Below, one piece after another: positions 8,251 to 27,407 of a stretch of 35,261 nucleotides of DNA. A program made the position numbers and the translations under genes. Where the stretch lies: the NCBI GenBank assembly GCA_017542695.1, contig JAFXWT010000201.1, forward strand, positions 1 to 35,261, read 5' to 3'. The notes beneath the pieces are model-generated. The model searched no databases. It saw nothing but the letters and a program-made list of their open reading frames with translations, and was not told the DNA's origin. This stretch comes from Clostridia bacterium. GTDB taxonomy: Bacteria > Bacillota_A > Clostridia > Oscillospirales > CAG-272. How positions within the stretch are numbered: the stretch's first letter is position 1; every line of letters starts with the position of its first letter.

Positions 8251-9057
8251 TCAGATCCTGCCTCCGCCTCCGCTGTAACTGCGTCCGCCGCCCGACGTTC
8301 CGCCATAGCTGCGACCACCGCTTCCCGAATTGCTCTCTCGACGGACTTTCGTCGTGTGAGAGTAGAGGAAGATGTCGCGCGAAACGGTGATCGAGGACTT
8401 GTCGCCGATCATATATCCGAGCGCGCCCTTCTGCTTGACCGCCGTCGTCAGCTTTTTCTTTTCCTTTTTTGTCACAGATAAGCCGACGAAAAGACCGACG
8501 GCAAGCCCGATCACGATGCGTATAGCGACTTTACCGGGGTCCTTGGGCTCGCCCTTGAAGCCGCCGTCGCAAAATGAACGGCACTTGTTTGTGAAGTAGA
8601 TGGATGCATTGTAGAAATTCTCACCGCTGCCGTAATCTCTGCCACGTTTGAGATCGTACGTCATCTTGTCCATCAGCGCGGCGCGCGTGTCTTCGTTTCC
8701 GGCGAGTTTTTTGCCCTTGCCGAAGCCGATCATCGCCCAGTTTTCCTCGTCTTCGTACCCGAATTCTTCCGTGTTGAAAACGAAGATCACACCGTCGTCA
8801 AATTCACATTCCTCGTCGTAGATATCGGTGGTATATCTTTCGAGCGATTTGCCGCCTATGGTGTTCGTTATGACGTAGATAACGTCAAACGAATACTCCG
8901 ATTTGATTGCCTTGCACGTCGCTTCGATCTGTGCGATCTGAGACGACGACATTGTTCCCGTGTTGTCGATTACGTGGCGCTTTGCCGCCGACGCGCTGAC
9001 CGACACGAGCGACGCGAGCAGGATGACCGTGAATAATACAGATAATATCTTCTTCAT
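8251..9057 (-). CDS. ydjH: TPM-domain membrane protein, YdjH-like
   Basis: A 268-residue protein with a signal peptide (MKKILSVLFTVILLASL..VSASA). An extracytoplasmic TPM domain (formerly DUF477) follows: VIDNTGTMSSSQIAQIEATC, then the characteristic acidic stretch and GFGKGKKL. One transmembrane helix (RIVIGLAVGLFVGLSV, about 178-195) and a Gly/Ser-rich tail (GGRSYGGTSGGGRSYSGGGG) complete it. TPM proteins often act in membrane-protein quality control. Between a YdjG-like and a YdjI-like gene this corresponds to B. subtilis YdjH of the pspA-ydjGHI operon. The ATG at 9057 has GAGG 6 bases upstream; a GTG four codons earlier overlaps the preceding stop and is less likely. Confidence 0.85.
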   Translation of the reverse strand: MKKILSVLFTVILLASLVSVSASAAKRHVIDNTGTMSSSQIAQIEATCKAIKSEYSFDVIYVITNTIGGKSLERYTTDIYDEECEFDDGVIFVFNTEEFGYEDEENWAMIGFGKGKKLAGNEDTRAALMDKMTYDLKRGRDYGSGENFYNASIYFTNKCRSFCDGGFKGEPKDPGKVAIRIVIGLAVGLFVGLSVTKKEKKKLTTAVKQKGALGYMIGDKSSITVSRDIFLYSHTTKVRRESNSGSGGRSYGGTSGGGRSYSGGGGRI

Positions 9058-9065
9058 GGCGCACC

Positions 9066-10124
9066 TCACATAAGCAGGATGAGCAGCGCCGCGACGGGCA
9101 CCGCCACAGCCGCCGCGATCAGCAGCAACATACGCCAGAATTTGCCTTTGTCACACGGCAGATTGCCTATGAATTTGCCCGTCTGCCCGTTCATCGCAAA
9201 CGTGTAGATCTTGTCTTTCCACTTTGTGTTGAGCAGCCATACGGGAAGCAGCGCATATTTTGCCTTGCCGTTCTTTGTGCTGCACCCGGAGCTTGCCGTC
9301 GTGACTGTCGAATATCCCTCGACGCTTCCGCGCAGAAACATATTCATACTCGCTTTGACGCGCTCTCCCGCTCGCGGCCGGCTCGCCTTTTCGTCAACGT
9401 CGTACTTGTCGGCGAGATACCCCGTGAGGTATGCCGAGCCGAACGGGATGGCGTCGTCCATGTTGTATGGCTCTATCGCCTCCATCATCGCGTCGTCCAT
9501 CTTCGTCGAGCCGTCGACGGGCACCTTTTCAAATGAGCCGACGCCCTCGCGGTATACGTTGAAATAGTCCGTTCTTGTGTAGTTGTACGTCCTGTCGCTC
9601 CACGTGCGGACGCGCGTCGCTCTGAATGACGCGGACGCGCTCGCGTCGCAGTCGAAAAGCCAAAACGGGACGTATATACCCTGTATTTCATTGATTTTGT
9701 TTTCGTCCTTGAACGCGTTCGGCATCAGTTTTTTGTCTTTGTAGAAGTTGATGAGCCCCTTTTTCGCGTCCTCTTTGCTGAGCTTGAACGGTATCACGAT
9801 GTCGGGGCGGAGCACGCCCGACACGTTCCCCGACATGACGGTCGGGTTGTCGCAGTACGGGCATTTCGTCGCGATGGTGTTTTCGTCGCCGATTATCTCA
9901 CCGCCGCACGACGGGCAAGTGTATACAACGCCTTCGCCGAGATCCTCGCCATGATATTCCTCAAACTCAAATTCGTCTTTTTTCTCCTCGCTGTCGGCGC
10001 TGAGCTGCTCCATTGCAGCCGCTTCAAACTCATTTCCGCAGGAATCACAGACAAGGAGCTGTTTTGAACTGTCGAAGCGGAGCGGAGCGCCGCAGGCGGG
10101 ACATTTATAATTCAGTATATCCAT
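9066..10124 (-). CDS. ydjG: Zinc-ribbon membrane protein, YdjG-like
   Basis: A 352-residue protein. Two N-terminal TFIIB-like zinc ribbons (CPACGAPL..CDSCG and CPSCGGE..CPYCDNP) are followed by a soluble domain of about 200 residues with IPFKLSKEDAKKGLINFYKDK and YVPFWLFDCDA, common in bacterial zinc-ribbon membrane proteins. A single C-terminal transmembrane helix (MLLLIAAAVAVPVAALLILL) probably serves as tail anchor. It lies 32 bases downstream of the YdjI-like gene and is followed by the YdjH-like gene, mirroring the B. subtilis ydjGHI set, in which YdjG and YdjH form a membrane complex. GGAGG precedes the ATG at 10124 by only about 4 bases. Confidence 0.8.
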   Translation of the reverse strand: MDILNYKCPACGAPLRFDSSKQLLVCDSCGNEFEAAAMEQLSADSEEKKDEFEFEEYHGEDLGEGVVYTCPSCGGEIIGDENTIATKCPYCDNPTVMSGNVSGVLRPDIVIPFKLSKEDAKKGLINFYKDKKLMPNAFKDENKINEIQGIYVPFWLFDCDASASASFRATRVRTWSDRTYNYTRTDYFNVYREGVGSFEKVPVDGSTKMDDAMMEAIEPYNMDDAIPFGSAYLTGYLADKYDVDEKASRPRAGERVKASMNMFLRGSVEGYSTVTTASSGCSTKNGKAKYALLPVWLLNTKWKDKIYTFAMNGQTGKFIGNLPCDKGKFWRMLLLIAAAVAVPVAALLILLM

Positions 10125-12741: not shown

Positions 12742-12783
12742 GAAAGAAACCTGATTTGTCAGAGACAAATCAGGTTTCTTTCA
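12741..12783. repeat. Perfect 20-bp stem hairpin
   Basis: A perfect inverted repeat (12741-12760 with 12764-12783) with a 3-base loop joins the nested-hairpin element to the partial tRNA-Ser copy. It could act as a transcription terminator for the minus strand but lacks a long T-run. Confidence 0.7.
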
Positions 12784-12804
12784 TGGCGGAAAGACGGGGA
12801 TTCG
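12779..12804 (-). repeat. Partial copy of the tRNA-Ser 3' end
   Basis: These 26 bases are identical to 12924-12949, which cover the last 21 bases of the tRNA-Ser gene (T-arm 3' half, acceptor, CCA) plus 5 downstream bases. Same orientation, 145 bp apart. Between them (12805-12923) are two further hairpins and no gene. It resembles an attachment-site duplication or a decayed tandem duplication. Confidence 0.7.
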
Positions 12805-12888: not shown

Positions 12889-12926
12889 AAAAAATGATGC
12901 GAGACAAAAATGCCTCGCATCATTTT
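12889..12926 (-). terminator. Terminator of tRNA-Ser
   Basis: On the minus strand a 13-bp stem (AAAATGATGCGAG / CTCGCATCATTTT) with a 10-base loop is followed by a run of six T, starting 3 bases after the tRNA CCA end. Confidence 0.8.
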
Positions 12927-12928
12927 CA

Positions 12929-13020
12929 TGGCGGAAAGACGGGGATTCGAACCCCGGAACGGGTATTAGCCGTTACACGATTTCCAGTCGTGCGCCTTAG
13001 ACCAGCTCAGCCATCTTTCC
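12929..13020 (-). tRNA. tRNA-Ser (anticodon GGA)
   Basis: A 92-nt gene including an encoded CCA. The acceptor GGAAAGA pairs with TCTTTCC, the D-arm reads GCTGAGCTGGTCTAAGGC, and the anticodon loop CTGGAAA closes a CACGA/TCGTG stem, giving anticodon GGA. A class II variable arm and the T-loop GGTTCGAATCC follow. The long variable arm confirms Ser. It decodes UCC/UCU. Confidence 0.96.
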
Positions 13021-13197: not shown

Positions 13198-16179
13198 ATG
13201 CTTCAACTCAAAAACATTACGAAAACTTACGTCGCGGGCGAAATGAAGGTGAACGCCCTCTCTGACGTCTCCGTTAATTTCCGCGAGAGCGAGTTCGTCG
13301 CCGTGCTCGGTCAATCGGGTTCGGGCAAGACGACGCTGCTCAACATCATCGGCGGACTTGACAGGTACACGAGCGGACAGCTCGTCATAAACGGCACTCC
13401 GACCGACAGATATCACGACGCGGACTGGGACACCTACCGCAACCATTCGATCGGCTTCGTGTTCCAGAGCTATAACCATATCCCGCATCAGACGGTGCTC
13501 GCCAACGTCGAGCTGGCGCTGACGCTTTCGGGCGTTTCTAAAACAGAGCGCCGCCGTCGCGCCGCCGAAGCGCTCGGTAAAGTCGGACTTTCGGAGCAGA
13601 TGATGAAAAAGCCGAACCAGCTTTCCGGCGGGCAGATGCAGCGCGTCGCGATAGCGCGCGCCATCGTCAACGAGCCGGACATCCTGCTTGCAGACGAGCC
13701 GACGGGTGCTCTCGACTCCGAAACGTCGGTACAGATAATGGAGATACTGAAAGAGATCTCGCGCGACCGCCTCATCATCATGGTCACGCACAATCCCGAC
13801 CTCGCCGACAAATACGCCACGCGCATCGTGCGGCTCAAAGACGGCAGGATCACGGGCGATACAGATCCTTACACCGACGATATGATCCCCGCCGCTCCCG
13901 CCGAGCCAACGGACAAAAAATCGAAAAAGAAAAAGGCGAAAATAGAGCACGGCGTCAAAAAAGGCAAGCGCTCAATGTCGATATTCACCGCGCTGTCGCT
14001 CTCCGTCAAAAACCTCGGAACAAAGCGCGGGCGCACGTTTATGACGTCGTTCGCGGGCAGCATCGGTATCATCGGAATCGCGCTGATAATGGCGCTTTCA
14101 AACGGAATACAGCTTTATATAAACCGCGTGCAGGAGGACACGCTTTCGACGTATCCGATAACGATACAAAAGGAAACGACCGATCTCTCCAGCGTCATAT
14201 CTACTTTGTCCGAAAGCCGCAACTCTGAAGACAGAAATCACGAGCTTGACGCGGTCTACGAAAACAGGATAATGTACGACCTGATGAACTCGATGGTCAA
14301 CATTGAAACGAGTAAGAACAACCTCGCTCGTTTCAAGCAGTATCTCGACAAGGAAATGAACGAGGCGACAAGCACCACAGAGCTTTACAAGATCGCCACG
14401 GTGAAATACTCGTACGACCTGCCGATGAATATCTACACGACAGACCCCGACGGAAAGATCGTCCGTTCCGACTACTCAGCCCTGCTTTCCGAAATGATGA
14501 ATACCATCGGAATATCGGGTTCGGCGGCATCAATGTATTCGAGCTTCGGCCCGATGTCGTCGCAGTCGCAGGTGTGGACGGAGCTTCTCGCGGGGCAGAA
14601 CGGCGAGCCGATAAGCGACCTTTTGTTTGAGCAGTACGACGTTCTGAAAGGCAGATGGCCCGAAAAATACGACGAGATAATCATCGTCGTCAACGAGCGC
14701 AACGAGATAAGCGACGTGTCGCTTTACGCGCTCGGACTGAAAACGTCGGAAGAGCTGATCTCCGTCATGAACGAATACATGAACGGCAAGACGAACGAGA
14801 GCAAAGTGCAAAGATGGACGTATGACGAGATCATCGGAAAGACGTTCCGCGTCGTGCTCTCTCCCGATATGTACATTCCGGGCAACGGAACGTACACCGA
14901 CCTCACCGAAACCGATCTCGGCACGGACACTCTTTACCGCACCGCCGAAACGGAGCTTAAGATCGTCGGCATCGTCCGTCAGAACGAGGACGCCGTCGCC
15001 GGCATGATCGGCGGCACGATCGGATACACTTCGGCGCTGACGACGCACATAATCAACGCGACGGCGGAAAATCCGCTCGTCAAAGCTCAGCTTGAAGACG
15101 ACAAGACAGACGTTCTGACAGGGCTCAGATTCAAAGACGAAAACACCTCGGAACCGACCGACGATGAAAAGAAAACGGCGGTCGACGAGTATATCGCTTC
15201 CCTTTCCGACGAGGAAAAAGCGGAGCTTTACATCGAGATAATGAGCCACCCGTCCGACGAGTACATCCAGAAGATGATGGATCAGTTCGTCGGTTCGGCG
15301 AGCCGCGAGGTAATCGAGCAGAAACTGCTCGAGCAGTACCCGCAGTACGAAAAAATGATAAAAGAGATGGACGACGAAACGCTGATGAGCTACGTCGCAA
15401 CGTCGATGGCGGCGCAGATAACGAACAGTTACGCTACTCAGGTCCGCCAGACGCTCGGCGAGATCCCCTCGGAGCAGCTTGCCGCCATGCTCGGCAAAAC
15501 GGAGCTTTCCGACGGTCAGTACGCGCTGATCTATGACGAAATGATAGCAAAGAGCGTCTCCGATTCGACGTATGAGGACAACCTCGAAAAATTCGGTTAC
15601 GTCACACTCGACAACCCCTCGTCGATCAACATTTTCGCTTCGACCTTCTCCGATAAGGACAAAATCGCCGAGATCATAACGAAATACAACGACACGGTGG
15701 ATGAAACCGACAAAATATCGTACACCGACTACGTCAAACTGCTCATGTCGTCGATAACGACGATAATCGATGTCATTTCGTACGTGCTCATCGCGTTCGT
15801 AGCGATCTCGCTCGTCGTTTCGTCGATAATGATAGGAATAATCACATATATTTCCGTTCTCGAAAGAACGAAGGAAATAGGCATACTGCGCTCTGTCGGA
15901 GCGTCGAAGCGCGACGTTTCGCGCGTTTTCAACGCCGAAACATTGACGATCGGCTTTTTCTCGGGCATCATCGGTATCGGTGCGACGCTCCTGCTCTGCA
16001 TACCAATCAACACAATAATCAGGGCGCTTTCGGGTATATCCAATATCGGAGCCGCTCTGCCGTTTATCGGCGCCGTCGTGCTCGTTGCGATAAGTATGCT
16101 CCTGACGTTCATCGCGGGACTTATCCCGTCGCGCCTCGCGGCGAACAAGGATCCCGTCACCGCGCTCAGAACGGAATGA
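13198..16179 (+). CDS. ABC transporter, ATPase fused to FtsX/MacB-type permease
   Basis: A 993-residue fusion. Residues 1-225 are an ABC ATPase of the LolD/MacB type: Walker A GQSGSGKTT (38-46), signature LSGGQMQR (143-150), Walker B ILLADEPTGALD (163-174), H-loop His199. After a Lys-rich linker a first TM helix (SFAGSIGIIGIALIMALS) leads into a large extracytoplasmic domain of about 540 residues. A C-terminal FtsX domain with three TM helices ends in the typical LIPSRLAANKDPVTALRTE. Such proteins act as mechanotransducers that expel peptides, lipids or antimicrobials rather than classic importers. No two-component system adjoins it, so the substrate is open. AGAGGA lies close (3 bases) to the ATG. 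Confidence 0.92.
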   Translation: MLQLKNITKTYVAGEMKVNALSDVSVNFRESEFVAVLGQSGSGKTTLLNIIGGLDRYTSGQLVINGTPTDRYHDADWDTYRNHSIGFVFQSYNHIPHQTVLANVELALTLSGVSKTERRRRAAEALGKVGLSEQMMKKPNQLSGGQMQRVAIARAIVNEPDILLADEPTGALDSETSVQIMEILKEISRDRLIIMVTHNPDLADKYATRIVRLKDGRITGDTDPYTDDMIPAAPAEPTDKKSKKKKAKIEHGVKKGKRSMSIFTALSLSVKNLGTKRGRTFMTSFAGSIGIIGIALIMALSNGIQLYINRVQEDTLSTYPITIQKETTDLSSVISTLSESRNSEDRNHELDAVYENRIMYDLMNSMVNIETSKNNLARFKQYLDKEMNEATSTTELYKIATVKYSYDLPMNIYTTDPDGKIVRSDYSALLSEMMNTIGISGSAASMYSSFGPMSSQSQVWTELLAGQNGEPISDLLFEQYDVLKGRWPEKYDEIIIVVNERNEISDVSLYALGLKTSEELISVMNEYMNGKTNESKVQRWTYDEIIGKTFRVVLSPDMYIPGNGTYTDLTETDLGTDTLYRTAETELKIVGIVRQNEDAVAGMIGGTIGYTSALTTHIINATAENPLVKAQLEDDKTDVLTGLRFKDENTSEPTDDEKKTAVDEYIASLSDEEKAELYIEIMSHPSDEYIQKMMDQFVGSASREVIEQKLLEQYPQYEKMIKEMDDETLMSYVATSMAAQITNSYATQVRQTLGEIPSEQLAAMLGKTELSDGQYALIYDEMIAKSVSDSTYEDNLEKFGYVTLDNPSSINIFASTFSDKDKIAEIITKYNDTVDETDKISYTDYVKLLMSSITTIIDVISYVLIAFVAISLVVSSIMIGIITYISVLERTKEIGILRSVGASKRDVSRVFNAETLTIGFFSGIIGIGATLLLCIPINTIIRALSGISNIGAALPFIGAVVLVAISMLLTFIAGLIPSRLAANKDPVTALRTE

Positions 16180-16194
16180 AGAGAGGTTTATTGA

Positions 16195-16623
16195 ATGGGA
16201 AGATTTAGCCAACGCCTCGCCGCGTTCTTCTACGGGCGTAACGGTCCCGACGAGCTGTGCCGCCTGCTGTGGTGGATATCTCTCGTGTTCCTTATCGCGA
16301 GCACGATAGTCCGGATTTTCGTGTCGCTCGTCGCGGGGTATATCCTTTACGGTGTGTCGCTGATTTTCATCGGATGGTCGATGTTCCGCTCGCTGTCGAG
16401 GAATGTATCGAAGCGCCGCGAGGAAAACTCGAAATATCTCGTTTTCCGCGGCAGGATCAAAGCATTTTTCATGCGGCAGAAAAACAGGAAAAAGTTTAAG
16501 GACACCTATATTTACGTCAAGTGCCCGAACTGCCACAACATCCTCCGCTTCCGCCGCATCGTCGGCGAGCACCGAGCAAAATGCCCGTGCTGTCATAAGG
16601 ATTTCGATTTGAATATAAGATGA
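16195..16623 (+). CDS. Small zinc-ribbon membrane protein
   Basis: A 142-residue protein with two transmembrane helices near the N-terminus (LLWWISLVFLIASTIVRIFV and LVAGYILYGVSLIFIGWSMF). A basic cytoplasmic stretch follows, then a C-terminal zinc ribbon with CPNCHN and CPCCHKDF. Proteins of this build are widespread in Clostridia and have no established role. The gene starts 16 bases after the ABC exporter stop, with GAGAGG upstream, so it is co-transcribed with it and may be an accessory or regulatory subunit. Confidence 0.85.
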   Translation: MGRFSQRLAAFFYGRNGPDELCRLLWWISLVFLIASTIVRIFVSLVAGYILYGVSLIFIGWSMFRSLSRNVSKRREENSKYLVFRGRIKAFFMRQKNRKKFKDTYIYVKCPNCHNILRFRRIVGEHRAKCPCCHKDFDLNIR

Positions 16624-16626
16624 AAC

Positions 16627-16648
16627 AGAGAGCGAAAGCTCTCTTTTT
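16627..16648 (+). terminator. Intrinsic terminator of the ABC exporter operon
   Basis: AGAGAGC-GAAA-GCTCTCT tetraloop hairpin followed by TTTTCTTTTT. Confidence 0.9.
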
Positions 16649-16659
16649 CTTTTTCGGAC

Positions 16660-16830
16660 AGTGATTTGGACGCCATCTTTGCGTAGCGAAGAGTCCGTGG
16701 GGCTTCACGGATTGCCGAAAAGCAGTGTTCTTTTTGATACTTAGTGGTTCCCGCGTGCGAACGTACGTAAGTGCGTGGGGTCCGCGTTTTTCTTTCACGC
16801 AGAAAGAAAAAGTATGCTTGTTTTCTTCCT
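16660..16830. repeat. Dispersed intergenic repeat, copy 1
   Basis: Non-coding. It starts with TTTGGACGCCATCTTTGCG, closely matched at 22202 by TGTGGACGCCACCTTTGCG, and ends in a TTTTTCTTTC/GAAAGAAAAA hairpin, like copy 2. It contains GTACGTAAGTGCGTG and GTCCGTG..CACGGA inverted segments. It lies directly before the OLE promoter. Confidence 0.6.
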
Positions 16831-16855
16831 ATAAGAAGAAAAACGCCCAAACCCC

Positions 16856-16884
16856 TTGCATATTCCGAAAATATATTGTATAAT
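16856..16884 (+). promoter_or_regulatory. Promoter of OLE RNA
   Basis: TTGCAT (16856-16861), 17-base spacer, TATAAT (16879-16884). Predicted start near 16891. Confidence 0.8.
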
Positions 16885-16890
16885 TATAAG

Positions 16891-17490
16891 TGCGGTATTA
16901 TACCGTAGTGACGGTGCAGTATCCTAGTTGAAGCACACGTTTCCGAAGACGGGCCTAAAAATCCGTTAAAGGGCATATCGATGAAACTCCTTGTTGCTGC
17001 TTTTTGCGCCCAGCTTAGGGTGGCTGCTGGGAGATTAGGATCGCGGGCGATCTGTAATGGCATACGGAACACGACCCTCTTTCCATGGAGGCCTTGTCAA
17101 GTGGTTAAGGCGCCTTTGCAAAACCATTGAGCCGAGACTACGGGCAAGGATTAAACCCATTATGCGGTACTTGTTGCTGTGAATGGTGTAGCCTGCCTTG
17201 AAGCGGCATTGGCGGATAGCGGAACAAATCGTTCTTCATGGCCTGAAAACGAGGCGACTGCCGATTGAAATCAATGCTGCAAAAGAGACTAGGAAACGTG
17301 GTTACTTTATCCGAGGAAAGCTCCTAGGCTGTTCTTACGGAGATACAAAAGGGATTGCAGTGCGAACTCTATAGGCAATCAAGTCGCGGACGCGGTGACG
17401 CTCCGACGCGCCCTTTAATGGGAAACCGCCGCATCGGTAACGGGCGGTCGGGCACGGGGAAAGCCTACTTGACCTGATGTCGCAAGGTTT
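16891..17490 (+). ncRNA. ole: OLE RNA (ornate, large, extremophilic)
   Basis: About 600 bases with no usable reading frame follow a consensus promoter and end just before oapA. OLE RNAs are about 600 nt, highly structured, and are encoded in Bacillota directly upstream of oapA in the order ole-oapA-(dxs)-tlyA-nadK-argR-recN; the same order without dxs is found here. Visible helices include a 5' GCGGTAT/ATACCG hairpin, CTAGGA (17289) with TCCTAG (17322), and ACCGCC (17425) with GGCGGT (17443). OLE forms a membrane-associated RNP with OapA and other Oap proteins and affects cold, ethanol and Mg2+ stress in Halalkalibacterium halodurans. Identification rests on synteny, length and position; I have not aligned it to the covariance model. 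The 3' end is approximate, and no terminator separates it from oapA. Confidence 0.9.
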
Positions 17491-17552
17491 ACCTTTTGTA
17501 TCACCGTCGCTTAACTCAAATCATTCATTTACATATCTCAATGGAGGTCCTT

Positions 17553-18167
17553 TTGGAACATCCCGAAAAGGACGGCGAACGCCGTCCGAAAAAGCAGAAA
17601 AAGCCGTCGTTCTTCTCCCTTGTCAACTGGAAGTGGGTCGCCGCGGCGTTCATATCGAGTATTTCCATTTCGATAGTCCTTTCCCTGCTCTCGTCAGAGC
17701 TGATGAACTATCTCAACGTCTTTTTCTCGATTCTGATACTTTTCCTGTTCATCATGATCGGCGTCGTCTTCGACGTCATCGGCGTCGCCGTGACGAAGGC
17801 GGACATCGCGCCGTTCAATTCGATGGCGGCACGCAAGGTGCGCGGCGGCCGCCGCGCTGTCAGAATGATAAAAAACGCCGACCGCGTATCAAGCTTCTGC
17901 AACGACATCATCGGCGATATCTGCGGCGTCGTTTCCGGTGCGACGGCGACGGCGATAGCGATAAAAATGGCGATGTTGACAAGCAGCTCAAACGAAATAT
18001 GGATAAACCTCATCATCTGCGGCGTCGTTTCGGCGCTCACCGTCGGACTTAAAGCGATCGGCAAAGCGGCGGGACTGAATTACGCCGACAAAATAGTGAC
18101 GGCCGTCGCCGTTTCGCTCAGCATTTTCGAGAAAACGACAAAGCACACGTCAAAAAAGAAAAAATGA
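17553..18167 (+). CDS. oapA: OLE-associated protein A (OapA)
   Basis: A 204-residue membrane protein. After a Lys-rich N-terminus come four hydrophobic helices (about 24-48, 50-77, 120-143, 150-175). The conserved cytoplasmic region between helices 2 and 3 reads FDVIGVAVTKADIAPFNSMA, ARKVRGGRRAVRMIKNADRV and SSFCNDIIGDICG, the family's hallmark. OapA binds OLE RNA and brings it to the membrane. I place the start at the TTG at 17553, which has GGAGG 5 bases upstream. The ATG at 17541 overlaps that site and has no site of its own. The gene ends in an ATGA overlap with tlyA, so the two are translationally coupled. Confidence 0.9.
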   Translation: MEHPEKDGERRPKKQKKPSFFSLVNWKWVAAAFISSISISIVLSLLSSELMNYLNVFFSILILFLFIMIGVVFDVIGVAVTKADIAPFNSMAARKVRGGRRAVRMIKNADRVSSFCNDIIGDICGVVSGATATAIAIKMAMLTSSSNEIWINLIICGVVSALTVGLKAIGKAAGLNYADKIVTAVAVSLSIFEKTTKHTSKKKK

Positions 18168-18949
18168 GAGCAGACGTTTTCCTAAAAGAACGCGGATACG
18201 CAAAAAGCCGCACCGCCGCCGCGGAACTCATATCGCGGGGAGTATATGTCAACGGTAAAAAAATATCGAAACCGTCGCAGGAAATATCGGGCGCGGAGCA
18301 TGAAATAACGATCTCCGAGCCGCAAAAATACGTCAGCCGCGGCGGGCTGAAGCTCGAAGCCGCGCTCGATGCGTTCGGAATTTCGCCCGAAGGTCTGCGC
18401 GCCGTCGACATCGGCGCGTCAACAGGGGGATTCACAGATTGTCTCATCAGCCGCGGCGCGCGCGAGGTCGTCGCCGTAGACGTAGGACACGACCAGCTCG
18501 ACAGCTCGCTCGCCACCGATCCGCGCGTGAAGAATATGGAGGGCGTGAACGCCCGCACGCTAACACAAGGCGACGTCGGCGGGCGCGTACCGCTCGTCGT
18601 CACCGATGTTTCGTTCATCTCGCAGTCGCTCATTTACGGAGCAGTTGCCGAAATTCTCGACGACGGCGGGACATTCATCTCGCTGATAAAGCCGCAGTTT
18701 GAGGCGGGGCGCGAAAACATCGGCAAGAGCGGCATCGTCGTCAAAGACGAAAAAACACACGTAAAAGTAATCGAAAAGCTCATCACCGAAGCACTATGCC
18801 ATAGTCTCGGTATGCTCTCGGTCATCCCCTCGCCGATCAAAGGCGGCGACGGAAACACCGAATATCTCGCTCTTTTCAAAAAAGGAGCCGCCGTCGGCTC
18901 GCTCGACATAAGATCGTGCGTCAGCGCGGCACTCGGAGGAAAATCATGA
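18164..18949 (+). CDS. tlyA: TlyA-family rRNA methyltransferase
   Basis: A 261-residue protein with an N-terminal S4 RNA-binding domain (about 1-60, MRADVFLKERGYAKSR..YVNGKK) and an FtsJ/RrmJ-type SAM-dependent methyltransferase domain. The SAM motif VDIGASTGGFTDCL is at 81-94, with VAVDVGHDQLD and SLIKPQFEAGREN further on. TlyA proteins (YqxC in Bacillus) make 2'-O-methylations in 16S/23S rRNA; the old name hemolysin A is misleading. The start overlaps oapA by 4 bases and the end overlaps nadK by 4 bases. Confidence 0.93.
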   Translation: MRADVFLKERGYAKSRTAAAELISRGVYVNGKKISKPSQEISGAEHEITISEPQKYVSRGGLKLEAALDAFGISPEGLRAVDIGASTGGFTDCLISRGAREVVAVDVGHDQLDSSLATDPRVKNMEGVNARTLTQGDVGGRVPLVVTDVSFISQSLIYGAVAEILDDGGTFISLIKPQFEAGRENIGKSGIVVKDEKTHVKVIEKLITEALCHSLGMLSVIPSPIKGGDGNTEYLALFKKGAAVGSLDIRSCVSAALGGKS

Positions 18950-19815
18950 AAAAAATCAAAAACGTATCGCTTTATCTCAATCGTGAGCGCGACGACGCGG
19001 ACAAGTACGTCCACGCGGCGCTTAACGTTCTGACAAAGCACGGCGCGTCCGTTACGATGCTGCACGGCTGTGAGGATGTCGGCGGACACATCGACGTATT
19101 CAAATATGTCGATGATATCGACGAGCTCGTGTCGGAAGCCGACGCGCTCATAATGCTCGGCGGTGACGGAACGATGCTCCGCGTATGCGGCGCATCGGCG
19201 CGCCGCGGAGTTCCGATACTCGGCATAAATCTCGGACATCTCGGATTTCTGACGGGCATCGAGCGGGACGACATCGACAAAATCGCGTCTCTCTTTTCGG
19301 GCGATTATTCGATAGAAGAAAGAATGATGCTCGACGTCACCGCTACCGACGGAGACAATATAAGCAGCTACACGTCTCTCAACGACGTGACCGTTTTTTC
19401 AAGCGCCAGCTCAAAGATCGCGTCGTTCACGCTCAGCTGTGACGGACGGCGCGTCATTTCGTTCAAGGCGGACGGGATCATCGTTTCGACACCGACCGGC
19501 TCGACGGCGTATTCGCTCGCCGCGGGCGGTCCGATAATCGACCCGCTTACAGATCTTATCTGCGTCACTCCGGTCTGCCCGCACTCGCTCGGTTCGCGCC
19601 CGATAGTTTTCTCCGCCGATTCCGTGCTTGAAATTTCGGGAAAAACAAACAGCTCCGACACGGGCGTCGTCGTAACGCCGGACGGTATAAACCAGCTCCA
19701 CGTGAGCGAAAGCTCAAAAACCGTGATCCGCCGATCCGCGCTCAGAACGAAAATTATAAAAATCGGCGAAAACCGCTTTTTCGACATAGTTAACACAAAA
19801 TTATACAACAGATGA
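18946..19815 (+). CDS. nadK: NAD kinase
   Basis: A 289-residue NAD kinase, which makes NADP from NAD with ATP or polyphosphate. The diphosphate-binding GGDG motif is at 72-75 (LGGDGTML) and the NAD-binding segment SFKADGIIVSTPTGSTAYSL is intact. The ATG at 18946 overlaps the tlyA stop (ATGA) and has GGAGG 6 bases upstream. An in-frame ATG at 18916 lies inside tlyA and lacks such a site. Confidence 0.95.
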   Translation: MKKIKNVSLYLNRERDDADKYVHAALNVLTKHGASVTMLHGCEDVGGHIDVFKYVDDIDELVSEADALIMLGGDGTMLRVCGASARRGVPILGINLGHLGFLTGIERDDIDKIASLFSGDYSIEERMMLDVTATDGDNISSYTSLNDVTVFSSASSKIASFTLSCDGRRVISFKADGIIVSTPTGSTAYSLAAGGPIIDPLTDLICVTPVCPHSLGSRPIVFSADSVLEISGKTNSSDTGVVVTPDGINQLHVSESSKTVIRRSALRTKIIKIGENRFFDIVNTKLYNR

Positions 19816-19824
19816 GGTTACAAT

Positions 19825-20283
19825 ATGAAAACAGGACGACACGATGCAATTCTCGAAATCATCGCGACCGATAACATCGACACCCAGGAACAACTCACCG
19901 AAAAACTCCGCGAGCGCGGCTTTTCAGTCACTCAGGCGACCGTCTCGCGCGACATCAAACAGCTTCGCCTTGTAAAGCGATCAACAAACGGCGGCTCGTA
20001 CAAATATACCGTTCAGAAAAGCGACGATCCGCAAAACAACGCGAAATACAGAAACATCATGCGCGAGACGCTCATTTCGATCAGGCAGGCGGGCACGCTC
20101 GTCGTCGTAAGGACGTACACGGGCATGGCGAACGCCGCCGCCGCCGCCATCGACGCCGTCGCGGGCTCTCTCGTCGTCGGCACGATCGCGGGCGACGACA
20201 CGATCTTTGTCGCTACGGAAAGCGAAGAAACGGCGCGCATTTTCATCGCCACCGTTAAGAATTTCACGGGAGTGGAATCGTAA
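19825..20283 (+). CDS. argR: Arginine repressor ArgR/AhrC
   Basis: A 152-residue regulator. The N-terminal winged helix has QEQLTEKLRERGFSVTQATV followed by SRDIKQLRLVK. The C-terminal hexamerisation and arginine-binding domain has TYTGMANAAAAAID and GTIAGDDTIFV, with the paired Asp residues that bind arginine. The length is typical. In this conserved cluster ArgR is commonly found between nadK and recN without arginine genes beside it, and its targets are elsewhere. GAGG lies upstream of the ATG at 19825; 9 bases separate it from the nadK stop. Confidence 0.95.
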   Translation: MKTGRHDAILEIIATDNIDTQEQLTEKLRERGFSVTQATVSRDIKQLRLVKRSTNGGSYKYTVQKSDDPQNNAKYRNIMRETLISIRQAGTLVVVRTYTGMANAAAAAIDAVAGSLVVGTIAGDDTIFVATESEETARIFIATVKNFTGVES

Positions 20284-20307
20284 TTTGCCATACGGGAGGC
20301 ACAAAAA

Positions 20308-21990
20308 GTGCTACGAGAACTGACAATTCAAAACATCGCCATCGTAAAGCGCGAGAGCATCTGCTTCCCGCGCGGTTTTTCCGTTATCACCGGCGAAACG
20401 GGCGCGGGCAAATCAATAATCATCGACGCGATCTCGCTCATCATGGGTGAGCGCGCCTCGCGCGAGCTCGTCCGCAGCGGTGAGACGAAAGCGTCCGTCA
20501 CGGCGCAGTTTACAGACGTGCCGGCGCATATATCGAACGTCGCTGCCTCGCTCGGTGTTGAGTGCGACGGCGAACTCGTATTCTCGCGCGAACTGACGCT
20601 TGACGGCGACTCTCTTTCATCGACGGCGCGCATCAATGGCAGACCCGTTTCGGCAACGGTGATGAAAACTCTCGCGTCGAACCTCATGAGTCTCCACACT
20701 CAGCACGCGAGTCAGATGCTATTAAATGACGAAAACCACATCGAATACCTCGACGCGTTCGCCGAAACGGAAAACGACATCGCCGAATACGCGAAGATAT
20801 ATCAAAAAGCGCTCGACGGCGAGCGCAAAATAGCGTCGCTGAAAAAGAGCGAACAGGAAAAGCGCCGCCTCTCCGATATGCTGAAATTTCAGATAAGCGA
20901 AATAAAATCGGTCTCCCCGCGCGAAAACGAGGAGGAACTCCTCGAAGCCGAGGCGGCAAAGATACGCAACGCCGAGGCGATATCGAAGCAGACGCGCATC
21001 ATCACACGCGCGCTTTACTCAAACGACAAGGGCTTTTCGGCACGCGATCTTATCGACAAGGCGCAAAGCGCCATCGTCGCGCTCGGAGATGTGATAAAAC
21101 AAGGCGGCGAGTACGTTTCGGCGCTCGATGAAATGAAGATAAAGCTCGAGGACATCGCCGAAACGGTAAAAAGCGAATGCTTCGTCGACATCGAAGACCC
21201 TTCGGCAGCGCTCGACAAGATCGAACGTCGGCTCGATGCGATAAAATCGCTCGGACGCAAGTACGGCAACACCGTTCAAGAGATCATCGCTTTCCGCGAG
21301 AAAGCGGAAAAGGAACTTGCCGAGATCGAGGGTGCCGACGAGATGATCGAGGACATCAAAAACGATTTGCGCGCCGTGTACGCCGAGCTCAGAACGGCGG
21401 CTGAAAAACTGACAGAAAAGCGTCGCGCGGCGGCGCTCGTTCTCGAAGATCGCATAAAAAAAGAGCTCGCCTCACTCGAAATGGACAAGGTCGAGTTCAA
21501 AATTGAATTGAAACAGCTTGCTGGGTATACGCCCGCGGGCATCGACGGAGTGTCGTTCCTCGTTTCGACCAACCCGGGCGAGCCGCTTCTCCCGATGTCA
21601 AAAATCGCGTCAGGCGGCGAGCTTTCGAGAATGATGCTCGCGTTCAAGTGCGCGTTTGCCGAAAAGGAAATGACGCCGACGCTCATTTTCGACGAGATCG
21701 ACACGGGAATTTCCGGCCGCACGTCGCACAAAATCGGGCTGAAGCTCCGCGAGAGCGCAAAGACGGCGCAGGTCATCTGCGTCACGCACTCGCCGCAGAT
21801 CGCGTCGCTTGCCGAGGAGCATCTGCTCGTTTCAAAGCACGAAACGCCCGACGGGCGCACGGAATCAGGCGTCGTTTCGCTCGACTATGACGGGCGCGTG
21901 AAAGAAATTTCCCGCATCATCGGCGGCGAGAAGATAACCGAAAAAACGGTCACGGCGGCAAAGGAAATGCTTTCATCGAGCTTTCTTTGA
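20308..21990 (+). CDS. recN: DNA repair protein RecN
   Basis: A 560-residue SMC-like ATPase that acts early in double-strand break repair. Walker A is ITGETGAGKSI (28-38). Two long coiled-coil segments follow (about 155-220 and 290-385). The C-terminal head has SGGELSRMMLA and Walker B TLIFDEIDTGISG. The start codon is GTG at 20308 with GGGAGG 8 bases upstream; the GTG codes the Met of MLRELTIQNIAIV. It closes the OLE cluster. Confidence 0.95.
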   Translation: MLRELTIQNIAIVKRESICFPRGFSVITGETGAGKSIIIDAISLIMGERASRELVRSGETKASVTAQFTDVPAHISNVAASLGVECDGELVFSRELTLDGDSLSSTARINGRPVSATVMKTLASNLMSLHTQHASQMLLNDENHIEYLDAFAETENDIAEYAKIYQKALDGERKIASLKKSEQEKRRLSDMLKFQISEIKSVSPRENEEELLEAEAAKIRNAEAISKQTRIITRALYSNDKGFSARDLIDKAQSAIVALGDVIKQGGEYVSALDEMKIKLEDIAETVKSECFVDIEDPSAALDKIERRLDAIKSLGRKYGNTVQEIIAFREKAEKELAEIEGADEMIEDIKNDLRAVYAELRTAAEKLTEKRRAAALVLEDRIKKELASLEMDKVEFKIELKQLAGYTPAGIDGVSFLVSTNPGEPLLPMSKIASGGELSRMMLAFKCAFAEKEMTPTLIFDEIDTGISGRTSHKIGLKLRESAKTAQVICVTHSPQIASLAEEHLLVSKHETPDGRTESGVVSLDYDGRVKEISRIIGGEKITEKTVTAAKEMLSSSFL

Positions 21991-22198: not shown

Positions 22199-22411
22199 CT
22201 TGATGTGGACGCCACCTTTGCGGGGTTCCGACGGTGAATTTTGCAAGGCAAAATTCAAAAACCAAAGCCGCGGTGCGGCGAAGTTTTAGTCGGGGAGCAA
22301 ATGCCGCTATATTTTCGGCTTCATCTACGGCTCGTAAGCGGTCAAGCGGCACGCTTGTCTGCTTCTTTTGGTACTTTTCTTTCAGAAAAAGAAAAGTACA
22401 AAGAAAAAAAG
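22199..22411. repeat. Dispersed intergenic repeat, copy 2
   Basis: Begins with TGTGGACGCCACCTTTGCG (compare 16664) and ends with the hairpin TACTTTTCTTT / AAAGAAAAGTA, as copy 1 ends with a similar pyrimidine/purine hairpin. Inner hairpins include TTTTGCAAGGCAAAA and GCCGCGGTGCGGC. It lies directly before the tyrS T-box promoter. The stretch between recN and this element holds no gene. Confidence 0.55.
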
Positions 22412-22438: not shown

Positions 22439-22467
22439 TTGACAAATCCATCATTTAATGCTATACT
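22439..22467 (+). promoter_or_regulatory. Promoter of the tyrS T-box transcript
   Basis: TTGACA (22439-22444), 17-base spacer, TATACT (22462-22467). Confidence 0.88.
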
Positions 22468-22479
22468 TATCCCACAGGC

Positions 22480-22717
22480 AATGACAAAGAGAGTACGTGT
22501 CGCTCACCCTTCACAGAGAGCCGTCGGCGGTGAAAGACGGCAAGGCGCGCCACCGAAATACACTTTTGAGCCGCGCCCCGACACGTAGGCGGCGACGGGT
22601 GCGCCCGTTATCGCGCGGAGTCACGTACTCACAAAGGCGCGTGCCGCGAGGTGCGCGCAAACAGAGGTGGTAACACGATCTTTCGTCCTCGACATTCGTC
22701 GGGGACTTTTATTTTTA
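22480..22717 (+). promoter_or_regulatory. Tyrosine T-box riboswitch
   Basis: The leader binds uncharged tRNA-Tyr and then lets transcription proceed into tyrS. The Stem I base TACGTGTCG (22494-22502) pairs with CGACACGTA (22579-22587). The specifier loop GAAATACACTTTTGAG carries the Tyr codon TAC at 22559-22561. The T-box sequence AGAGGTGGTAACACG (22663-22677) has TGGT (22668-22671), complementary to the ACCA end expected of tRNA-Tyr. The intrinsic terminator GTCCTCGAC / GTCGGGGAC (22685-22706) is followed by TTTTATTTTTATT. Promoter, leader and gene are in the expected order. Confidence 0.95.
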
Positions 22718-22736: not shown

Positions 22737-23963
22737 ATGCAAATTTACGAAGAACTCGTCGCGCGCGGCCTGATAGCACAGGTGACGAATGAAGAAGAGA
22801 TCCGCCGGATGATAAACGCAGGCAAAGCCACGTTTTACATCGGCTTCGACTGCACGGCAGACAGTCTCACAGCAGGTCATTTCATGGCGCTGACGCTGAT
22901 GAAACGACTTCAACAGGCAGGCAACAAGCCGATCGCGCTCATCGGCGGCGGCACGACTATGATCGGCGACCCTTCGGGACGCTCCGACATGAGAAAAATG
23001 CTCACGCGAGACGACATTGACCACAACGCCGAATGTTTCCGTCGCCAAATGGAAAAATTCATCGAGTTCGGCGAGGGCAAGGCGCAGATGGTCAACAACG
23101 CCGACTGGCTCCTCTCCCTAAACTATGTCGAACTGCTCCGCGAAGTCGGCACGTGTTTCTCGGTCAACAATATGCTCCGCGCCGAGTGCTACAAACAGCG
23201 TATGGAAAAAGGACTCTCGTTCTTTGAGTTCAACTATATGATAATGCAGTCCTATGACTTTTACTATCTCTTCCAGAATTACGGCTGTAATATGCAGTTC
23301 GGCGGCGACGATCAGTGGTCAAACATGCTCGGCGGCACCGAGCTTATCCGCAGAAAGCTCGGAAAAGATGCGCACGCCATGACGATTACGCTTCTCACCG
23401 ACTCGCAGGGCAAAAAGATGGGCAAGACCGCGGGCAACGCAGTATGGCTCGATCCGAACAAAACATCCCCGTTCGATTTTTACCAGTATTGGCGCAACGT
23501 CGACGACGCGGACGTTATGAAGTGCATCAAGATGCTCACATTCATCCCGATGGATAAGATCGCGGAAATGGAAAACTGGGACATCTCGCGCATCAACGAA
23601 AAGAAGGAAATTCTCGCATACGAGCTGACCGCCCTCGTTCACGGCGACGAGGAGGCGACAAAGGCGCAGAACGCGGCGCGCGCACTCTTCTCCGGCAAGG
23701 GCGACACGGCGAATATGCCGACTACGGAGCTTACCGCCGACAATTTTACGGACGGCAAAATATCAATTCTCGATCTTATGACGATCTCGGGACTCGCGCC
23801 CTCGCGCGGCGAGGCGAAGCGGCTCATCCAAGGCGGCGGCGTTTACATCGGCGACGAAAAATGCGACAGCTTCTCGAAAGATTTCGCCCTCTCCGACTTC
23901 GACGGCGACGGCGTCGTCATCCGCAAAGGCAAAAAGGTATTCGTGAGATTTGTGGTGAAATAA
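22737..23963 (+). CDS. tyrS: Tyrosyl-tRNA synthetase
   Basis: A 408-residue class I synthetase that charges tRNA-Tyr. The HIGH-equivalent is AGHF (46-49), the KMSKS-equivalent is KMGKT (227-231), and GDDQWSNMLGG lies between them. The C-terminal S4 RNA-binding domain (about 340-400, SRGEAKRLIQGGGVYI) is present, so the enzyme is complete. AAGGAAGG precedes the ATG. Expression is controlled by the T-box leader. Confidence 0.97.
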   Translation: MQIYEELVARGLIAQVTNEEEIRRMINAGKATFYIGFDCTADSLTAGHFMALTLMKRLQQAGNKPIALIGGGTTMIGDPSGRSDMRKMLTRDDIDHNAECFRRQMEKFIEFGEGKAQMVNNADWLLSLNYVELLREVGTCFSVNNMLRAECYKQRMEKGLSFFEFNYMIMQSYDFYYLFQNYGCNMQFGGDDQWSNMLGGTELIRRKLGKDAHAMTITLLTDSQGKKMGKTAGNAVWLDPNKTSPFDFYQYWRNVDDADVMKCIKMLTFIPMDKIAEMENWDISRINEKKEILAYELTALVHGDEEATKAQNAARALFSGKGDTANMPTTELTADNFTDGKISILDLMTISGLAPSRGEAKRLIQGGGVYIGDEKCDSFSKDFALSDFDGDGVVIRKGKKVFVRFVVK

Positions 23964-25652: not shown

Positions 25653-27284
25653 TTATTTCTTTACGCTCATCCACACTGTTTCTGCGTTCAGCTTGTCGCG
25701 GAGCGGTTCGAGTATGCCGTCGTCGATAAGCGCCTTTATCAGCGTCTCGCAAACAGGGAACGCCGCAAGATTGGCGAAAAATTTGTACTCCGGGATCAAG
25801 TGCTCGGGGAGCACTTCCCTGATAAGCGCCGCTACCTCCGCCGCCGTCTTTTCCGCCTCGTCGCTGAAAGCGTCAACGATCTTGTCGGATATCTTGTCCG
25901 CCGCGTCGTCATCCGCATAATTCATTACGAGGAATTTTGTGTAAAGCGTGTCGCCGTCGCGGTAGATGTAGTTTTCCTCGATCGCCTTTGCCGCCGTTTC
26001 TTTCTCATCGTCGGAAAGCGTGTTCACATCAAGACCGTTTATAGCGCGGATAGCCATTTGCAGTTTTTCGTCGTTTGCAAGATTCCGTCCGCAGTGGAAA
26101 TGCGGTTCGATCGGAAATTCTTTTGAATAGCTGTATATATTTGTAATATGCACATAGGAATGTCCGAGAATGTTGCGTGCCGTAATTCCGTCGCACCCGC
26201 CGAACCAATTCTTGCCGAAATTTTCAAATCCGAAAACCGAAAACTCGCGCTTCGGCATTTCAACGCCCGGAAAAAACTTTTCGGCAAGTATTTCTTTGAC
26301 TTTCCGATTGAAATTGTATCCGATGTTCTGCACCTGCTGCCAAAGGACAGCGTTCAGCGTGACGTTCTTGTTTATGAAAGGCACAGCGAGATACTCGCTC
26401 TCATGCGCTTTCACGAACTCCTTGACCGTTTTGCAGATGAAAGGCGTGCGTTTTTCAAAAATGCTCCACGCGCGCTTTGTCTGCTCCTTGTCGAGAAGAA
26501 CGAAGTTCATTGCGTATTTTCCGCCACCGACATCGCGCAAAACTCCGTATCTGCCATACTGCCCTCTGAGAAGAATGTTTATTTCGTCCTCGACGTATAT
26601 CATCGGCACGTTAAGTTCTTCCGAAATCTCCTTTGCCGTGCGCGGCTTTTTTGAGCAGAGCGACATTATGTGAAGCGAAAGCTCGCGGTTGCATACCTCT
26701 CTCGGATCGCTCCAACCGGGATTTCCCGTTCCCCAGATCTCGTATTCAATGTGGTCGAAAGATGTCGGCTTTTGTATTTTATCCATGTTCATTACCTCAT
26801 TTCTTATTTCGTTTCTCGAAGAAAACAAGCGCTGACGCACCGCCGTTTCGCTGATGCCAAGCTCCCGCGCGATCACCGCCGTCGGCTTCGCGTCGAGATA
26901 AAACGCCACCGTCACGTCTCTGTACGAGCGCGCAAGAAACGCTATCGCGCGAAAAATACTTTTTAAGTCATCCTCGTCGCTGTCGGAAACGTCATCGTCG
27001 GCAATATTGTTCAGATATTCGTCAGCGTCGCCCTCGCACGAGCGCTCGCGCTCCGCACGCCGCTTTTCCGAATATTTCGCGTATACATTGTGCGCGACGC
27101 GCCAGACGTACGCCTCCGCGTTTTCGATCTCGCCGTCCGTTTTCGCCTGTTTCAGTATTTCAAGCGTAATGTCGGACGAAAGATCTTCCGCCTCGTGCGA
27201 ATTATTCGTCCTTGCGTAGCAAAAACCGAACAGTCGGTCGAGCATTTCGCGGTCGAGCAGTTTGATAAGCTCCTGTTTCTTCAT
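25653..27284 (-). CDS. ECF-type sigma factor with ~380-aa C-terminal extension (second)
   Basis: A 543-residue protein, one residue longer than the one at 5206. The sigma-2 region has NSHEAEDLSSDITLEILKQA and EAYVWRVAHNVYAKYSEKRR. An acidic linker (DDDVSDSDEDD) precedes sigma-4 with LARSYRDVTVAFYLDAK and AVIARELGISETAVRQRLF. The extension begins at about residue 167 and has a winged-helix-like part (RTAKEISEELNVPMIYVEDEI), a middle domain rich in Phe/Gly (FGFENFGKNWFGGCDG) and a second winged-helix-like part (KAIEENYIYRDGDTLYTKFL). The order matches the other protein although identity is low. The start at 27284 has AAAGGG upstream; a longer reading frame runs through the cre palindrome. GAGG stands 8 bases before Met167 at the domain junction. 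No anti-sigma gene is adjacent. Confidence 0.85.
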   Translation of the reverse strand: MKKQELIKLLDREMLDRLFGFCYARTNNSHEAEDLSSDITLEILKQAKTDGEIENAEAYVWRVAHNVYAKYSEKRRAERERSCEGDADEYLNNIADDDVSDSDEDDLKSIFRAIAFLARSYRDVTVAFYLDAKPTAVIARELGISETAVRQRLFSSRNEIRNEVMNMDKIQKPTSFDHIEYEIWGTGNPGWSDPREVCNRELSLHIMSLCSKKPRTAKEISEELNVPMIYVEDEINILLRGQYGRYGVLRDVGGGKYAMNFVLLDKEQTKRAWSIFEKRTPFICKTVKEFVKAHESEYLAVPFINKNVTLNAVLWQQVQNIGYNFNRKVKEILAEKFFPGVEMPKREFSVFGFENFGKNWFGGCDGITARNILGHSYVHITNIYSYSKEFPIEPHFHCGRNLANDEKLQMAIRAINGLDVNTLSDDEKETAAKAIEENYIYRDGDTLYTKFLVMNYADDDAADKISDKIVDAFSDEAEKTAAEVAALIREVLPEHLIPEYKFFANLAAFPVCETLIKALIDDGILEPLRDKLNAETVWMSVKK

Positions 27285-27298
27285 CGTTTTGCCCTTTC

Positions 27299-27312
27299 TG
27301 AAAGCGCTTTCA
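27299..27312. promoter_or_regulatory. Perfect cre-like palindrome
   Basis: TGAAAGCGCTTTCA is a perfect 14-bp palindrome matching the catabolite-responsive element consensus (TGNNARCGNWWWCA) read by CcpA and related LacI-family proteins. It lies 15-28 bases upstream of the sigma factor start codon and downstream of the predicted transcription start, a roadblock position. Confidence 0.65.
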
Positions 27313-27407
27313 CCCGTTAAGTGTCGGAAAAACAAGAAATGTTAGCGTTTTTTTGAAAAAATGCAAAAATCCCGTGATTTATCGCAGATTTCGCCCTTTC
27401 CGAATGT

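Follow-up and report, generated by a model that had tools for sequence, protein, structure and literature searches.

The 35,261-nucleotide (nt) stretch analyzed here, hereafter the window (contig JAFXWT010000201.1 of the Clostridia bacterium assembly GCA_017542695.1), raises the question of what is encoded by the long interval preceding its oapA gene, which a preliminary description made from the sequence alone had proposed to be a natural variant of OLE RNA in a gene cluster with altered borders. OLE RNA is conserved and ranks among the largest folded RNAs of bacteria. It dimerises and is held at the membrane by the protein OapA, and H. halodurans needs it under Mg2+, alcohol, cold and carbon stress (PMC12265935). 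Our analysis indicates that this is very probably a canonical OLE ribonucleoprotein locus in an uncultured Clostridia lineage of gut/rumen type, whose RNA would begin with a short hairpin, be closed by helix P1, dimerise and be held at the membrane by OapA.

The covariance-model search suggested with the preliminary description returns an end-to-end match, with the Rfam OLE model RF01071 aligning over model positions 1-616 to 629 nt of the plus strand at 16895-17523 (cmscan, 421.7 bits, E = 9.8e-121; curated threshold, 50). The roughly 600 bases said to lack coding potential indeed contain no open reading frame of at least 80 amino acids (aa) on either strand within 16851-17476. The term variant is apt for the borders of the cluster but not for the RNA body, which, judged from its sequence, is an ordinary full-length OLE with the model covered and the contact loops intact. 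Helices P7, P8 and P9 appear to be present and unshortened, their names being assigned by order along RF01071, the only model applied. The elements of the RNA are as follows.

16895..17523, plus strand: OLE RNA core, the RF01071 match, with 135 of 153 model pairs canonical in the window
16910..16915, plus strand: 5' strand of the end-to-end helix, GACGGT, pairing with 17503-17508
16955..16962, plus strand: A-rich loop CUAAAAAU, assigned by letters and order to a published dimer contact; identical in 33 of 36 rows
17007..17013, plus strand: loop CGCCCAG, putative half of a kissing pair; identical in 31 of 36 rows
17056..17063, plus strand: loop AAUGGCAU, putative other half of the kissing pair; identical in 25 of 36 rows, with AACGGCAT in nine and AAAGGCAT in two
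17239..17243, plus strand: P9 apical loop UGGCC with self-complementary GGCC, the latter present in all six clade members
17394..17400, plus strand: GGUGACG apical loop of the 3' half, GNRA-type, in a hairpin that is a candidate OapB site
17503..17508, plus strand: 3' strand of the end-to-end helix, ACCGTC, pairing with 16910-16915

To assess the fold, we aligned 36 of 42 OLE sequences, leaving out L004, which is cut by a contig end, and the short variants L017, L018, L020, L021 and L022, and transferred the Rfam structure to this alignment via the window (153 of 159 pairs). Standard pairs occupy 87.3% of cells across the 36 sequences, falling to 38-46% when one side of the pair is shifted by one to three columns, and double changes occur at 111 of the 153 pairs, with none of 500 shuffles reaching any of these measures. 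Covariation across the 36 sequences thus supports the OLE fold. The end-to-end helix, which we take to be the published P1, retains all six pairs in 33 of 36 rows, five in two and three in one, and it appears together with the 5' hairpin described below in an unconstrained free-energy fold of 633 nt (z = -3.83 against 20 shuffles).

Within a tree of OapA proteins (41 of 43 rows, two extracted proteins shorter than 90 aa being left out), the window groups with L001, L002, L082, L083 and L084 (100/99), and these six loci are referred to as the clade. The letters of the dimer-contact loops, matched to the published loops by letters and order, are kept in the window and across the six clade members. 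Cryo-EM of OLE describes a dimer contact formed by the A-rich loop (PMC12265935), and the published P9 contact is one in which GGCC switches to GAUC or AGCU (PMC12286853). The GNRA-type loop reads GTGA, GAGA, GAAA, GCAA, GAGA and GTAA across the clade.

The RNA is followed after 29 nt by the TTG start of oapA, which lies directly downstream of ole in the window and in 41 of the 42 fetched loci. The genes from here to recN are these.

17553..18167, plus strand: oapA, 204 aa, TTG start at 17553, Shine-Dalgarno sequence GGAGG at 17543-17547
18164..18949, plus strand: tlyA (TIGR00478, 201.2 bits; cut-off 185.8)
18916..19815, plus strand: nadK (PF20143, PF01513)
19825..20283, plus strand: argR (TIGR01529, 137.2; cut-off 130.45)
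20308..21990, plus strand: recN (TIGR00634, 488.8; cut-off 407.85)

The product of oapA fits the four-helix protein with an OapA hallmark that had been reported, as it carries the DxxxD motif, whose residues D118 and D122 are invariant in 18 of 18 sequences, and is predicted to adopt a CNNM-like four-helix membrane fold. That predicted fold is shared with MpfA/CorB-type CNNM transporters, although the PF01595 match of the window's OapA is below the cut-off; it differs from those transporters in its length of 204 aa, in its DxxxD motif and in that Pfam finds no CBS or CorC_HlyC domain. A sequence search of the PDB with OapA gave no match to E 1.

Open reading frames together with Pfam and TIGR profiles bear out the described order oapA, tlyA, nadK, argR, recN, and also the reported absences, since in the window dxs does not separate oapA from tlyA and the upstream side carries no xse/ispA. 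Among 43 loci including the window, with denominators counting the loci that offer enough sequence, dxs follows oapA in 26 of 42 and 25 of 36 have ispA upstream, while argR, recN and tlyA are found downstream in 31 of 36, 28 of 32 and 31 of 38, respectively; the five loci that miss argR are the short-OLE loci named above, labelled Bacilli, Erysipelotrichaceae or Clostridia. Within the clade, dxs is absent between oapA and tlyA in all six members (L001 being judged from its tlyA start, where the contig breaks), and adjacent xse/ispA is absent in the five members that can be judged, the contig of L083 being too short. On these contigs, then, the loss of dxs and xse/ispA at the locus is common to the whole clade, so the altered borders stand as a feature of the lineage, and the OLE-OapA pair can evidently be retained without these genes beside it. 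Elsewhere in the tree, xse/ispA persists without dxs in L085, L094, L096 and L098, which fall at two distinct positions; dxs and xseA persist in L088 and L093, where ispA was not detected; and L091, on its own branch, is without both dxs and xse/ispA. In genomes G001 and G002 dxs is located elsewhere; a polyprenyl_synt domain was not found in either assembly, from both of which rpoC and rpsL are also missing, probably through assembly gaps.

The presumed start of the RNA is where the clade departs from the Rfam model, which lacks the hairpin that these OLE sequences carry before P1. Two elements precede P1.

16856..16884, plus strand: ole promoter TTGCAT-N17-TATAAT, read from the sequence (-35 at 16856-16861, -10 at 16879-16884)
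16891..16907, plus strand: clade-specific 5'-terminal hairpin TGCGGT-ATTAT-ACCGTA, past the -10 box and ahead of P1; its stem has 7 bp when a TTA loop is assumed

The promoter had been called a consensus one, which is true of its -10 box but not of its -35 box; the latter matches consensus at only three of six positions, which is why it was missed by a consensus promoter scan. Relatives have a promoter at the same position, with TTG and four of the six -10 positions invariant in seven aligned sequences, window included. The -10 box lies 23-28 nt before P1 in all six clade members and 3-19 nt before it in 27 of 31 other loci (those with a -10 box found), and the additional space holds the hairpin, which begins 5-7 nt past the -10 box and would thus be located at the expected transcription start. 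A strict search, defined after the results of a score-based scan were known and entered also by L131, a locus that joined the set later and was used only here, finds the hairpin in six of six clade members and in none of 31 other full-length OLE loci. Across the six sequences 35 of 36 cells are paired and nine are changed on both sides; covariation is 1.022 as opposed to 0.401 in shuffled alignments, and no shuffle among 500 reaches either the covariation score or the paired percentage. A weaker measure, the number of pairs with double changes (four of six), is equalled by 21 of 500 shuffles, and four of 720 arm permutations do equally well. Folding z-scores are -2.93 for the 25-nt stretch of the window and range from -1.18 (L082) to -4.16 (L084) in the other five. 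Resting on six related sequences, the case for an RNA hairpin is good but short of conclusive.

Three observations weigh against the locus being a fully canonical, hairpin-first OLE. The middle of P6 is mostly unpaired across the 36-sequence set, in many loci alike, and the window carries CCCUCUUUCC at the P6 site, such that its anti-Shine-Dalgarno mimic, described as the bS21 site in the P6 of H. halodurans OLE (PMC12054373), is imperfect. The initial score-based hairpin scan (60 shuffles) gave p < 0.05 for the window, L002, L083 and L084 but was weaker for L001 (p = 0.22) and L082 (p = 0.08). The same scan flagged one outsider, L007, with an A/T palindrome across its promoter.

Could the region instead serve solely as a structured 5' leader controlling oapA in cis? 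Its position, after a promoter and 29 nt ahead of the oapA TTG with no plus-strand terminator-like site in the gap, would suit such a leader. However, it aligns from end to end with a family whose RNA has been characterised as acting in trans within a ribonucleoprotein (PMC12265935) and keeps the loops that match published dimer contacts, and we therefore reject the cis leader as highly improbable. An OLE copy decaying after the cluster changed would be in keeping with the departure of dxs and xse/ispA from the locus and with the 18 of 153 model pairs that are non-canonical in the window. Yet the great majority of pairs remain canonical, oapA is open, the contact loops are kept in the six clade members and the score equals that of the relatives (417-427 bits in the clade), which makes decay the most far-fetched of the explanations weighed here.

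The hairpin poses a separate question, since palindromes at start sites are often operators, and the one at 16891-16907 lies at the expected start site, where a repressor could bind it as DNA. An argR gene is nearby, yet the letters of the palindrome are presumably unlike an ARG box. An operator read by one repressor should retain its sequence, whereas the arms change theirs and stay complementary in the nine double-change cells, and the free-energy fold includes the stem as well; an operator is accordingly unlikely, if less so than the leader or decay, and we reject it in favor of an RNA hairpin. Most likely, such a hairpin would protect the 5' end from exonuclease or stack on P1. We consider it somewhat better than an even bet that OLE in this clade gained a covarying 5' hairpin upstream of P1, capping or extending the domain in which the two ends meet, while the locus shed dxs and xse/ispA. 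If so, the linkage of ole to isoprenoid genes would be dispensable and the retained linkage to tlyA, nadK, argR and recN the one that matters. Gene neighborhood is one main clue offered for the biochemical function of OLE (PMC12265935, PMC10898510), and a clade with a full OLE-OapA pair and no isoprenoid genes beside it would be a natural test of that clue, just as a lineage-specific 5' hairpin would be a handle on the OLE end domain.

For the canonical OLE locus proposed here, transcription from the promoter at 16856-16884 would start at about 16891, yielding an RNA that opens with the short clade-specific hairpin and whose two ends are joined by P1. The RNA would fold to full length, possibly assisted by OapB and OapC encoded in the window's own genome, and dimerise via its conserved loops, while OapA from the same transcript would anchor it at the membrane. 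Given the intact OLE and OapA parts, a dimer, membrane location and stress role like those in H. halodurans are to be expected, and by analogy the complex may support metal-ion and stress homeostasis.

Compared with the full-length OLE class (RF01071; Fernando and Breaker 2024, PMC11332333), the window agrees in model coverage, fold, contact loops, adjacent oapA and downstream tlyA-nadK-argR-recN, and differs in its extra 5' hairpin, in lacking dxs or xse/ispA neighbors and in the weak P6 middle that many loci share. OLE variants 1 and 2, from the TANB77 and RF39 clades, likewise come from uncultured gut bacteria; in these P7/P8 are shortened or absent, the OapB site often too, and OapB and OapC are largely lacking (PMC11332333). 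In contrast, the window covers the full model and its relatives carry OapB- and OapC-type genes, so that a gut/rumen clade with full-length OLE would be added to the known distribution.

The OapB-type and OapC-type genes come from different relatives. In G001 (L049), G002 (L048) and G003 (L047), OapB-type genes are flanked by map and infA; the G003 and G001 proteins match OapB in the PDB (E = 8.5e-14 and 6.6e-7), and the G002 protein is 47% identical to that of G001 and 30% identical over 77 residues to that of G003. The Pfam KOW family did not lead to OapB, its hits being L24 where context was examined and others being of NusG-like length, whereas map-infA synteny succeeded. L7Ae genes occupy the YbxF (OapC) place beside rpsL in G006, G063 and G088, the G063 protein being 37% identical over 71 residues to that of Thermoanaerobacterium; in G001 and G002, which miss rpoC and rpsL as noted, only YlxQ-type L7Ae was found. 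In a search for MpfA, expected to be rare or absent alongside the OLE complex, PF01595 gives one sub-threshold hit each in the incomplete assemblies G001-G004, the hit being oapA itself in G001, G002 and G004 and, by eye, an unrelated transporter in G003. Using OapA as a proxy, matches at E 1e-3 occur in 39 of 146 relatives of G002 (the 473-aa match in G070, at E = 2.1e-4, is probably a protein other than OapA), and OapA matches in 48 of 196 relatives of G063, two weakly, and in 121 of 394 genomes sampled from the order of G088, three only weakly. In these assemblies, which are incomplete, the distribution of the OLE-OapA pair is patchy. G095 has two OapA-like genes on contigs C41 and C94 (45% and 40% identity), reflecting either two OLE loci or a mixed bin. 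L131 (NZ_AP023421.1, Pusillibacter faecalis pMM59_01) carries at 8984-9648 a full-length OLE of 399.8 bits with oapA-dxs-tlyA-nadK-argR-recN and tyrS. The replicon, 504 kb long, has a plasmid annotation and a conjugative type, and is perhaps a chromid.

Upstream of ole, three features precede the promoter.

13198..16179, plus strand: MacB-like fused ABC ATPase/FtsX permease, 993 aa (PF00005, PF02687)
16195..16623, plus strand: 142-aa protein with two CxxC pairs, also adjoining ole in L001 and L082 (tblastn, 59% and 40% identity)
16627..16654, plus strand: terminator-like hairpin (stem 16627-16644) with T-rich tail, between the 142-aa gene and the ole promoter

An ABC exporter is thus present as described, but the supposed operon reduces to one gene and the 142-aa protein, followed by the terminator-like site. 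The exporter, found within 6 kb upstream of oapA in one of 35 loci, the window itself, is rejected as an OLE-linked gene and is an altered border of the window only; L001 has the same tRNA-side sequence and 142-aa gene with no exporter between. The 142-aa gene, with only sub-threshold zinc-ribbon and membrane-domain matches, lies upstream of ole in three of 40 loci, window included. Terminator-like sites number seven in 16150-17700, as opposed to 2.1 in shuffles. The dispersed repeat said to adjoin the RNA comes down to one 16-mer, GGACGCCAYCTTTGCG, present twice in two intergenic regions (16668-16683 and 22207-22222; expected 0.07, with two matches in none of 100 shuffles); within the window, blastn finds 16624-16894 only once, which leaves a repeat weakly supported, and the 16-mer has no exact match among 101 loci. 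Phage records matched neither 16624-16894 nor the window's OLE.

Past recN, a promoter-like TTGACA-N17-TATACT (22439-22467) is followed by a T-box leader (22472-22693, 101.3 bits) and a gene at 22737-23963, a putative tyrS named from its sequence and the T-box, which looks like a separate unit; T-box matches also occur in L002 and L084. Further upstream, a Gut-1 RNA match on the minus strand (12742-12672, 54.6 bits against 50) falls on a 37-nt tandem repeat, and a perfect 26-nt repeat (12779-12804 and 12924-12949), whose second copy overlaps the 3' end of a minus-strand tRNA gene (13020-12932), looks like an attachment-type tRNA-end duplication. Two sigma-factor-like proteins with long C-terminal parts, judged by eye, are encoded at 5206-6834 (plus strand, 542 aa) and 25653-27335 (minus strand, 560 aa), and L050 has a similar 542-aa gene, likewise judged by eye, near dxs.

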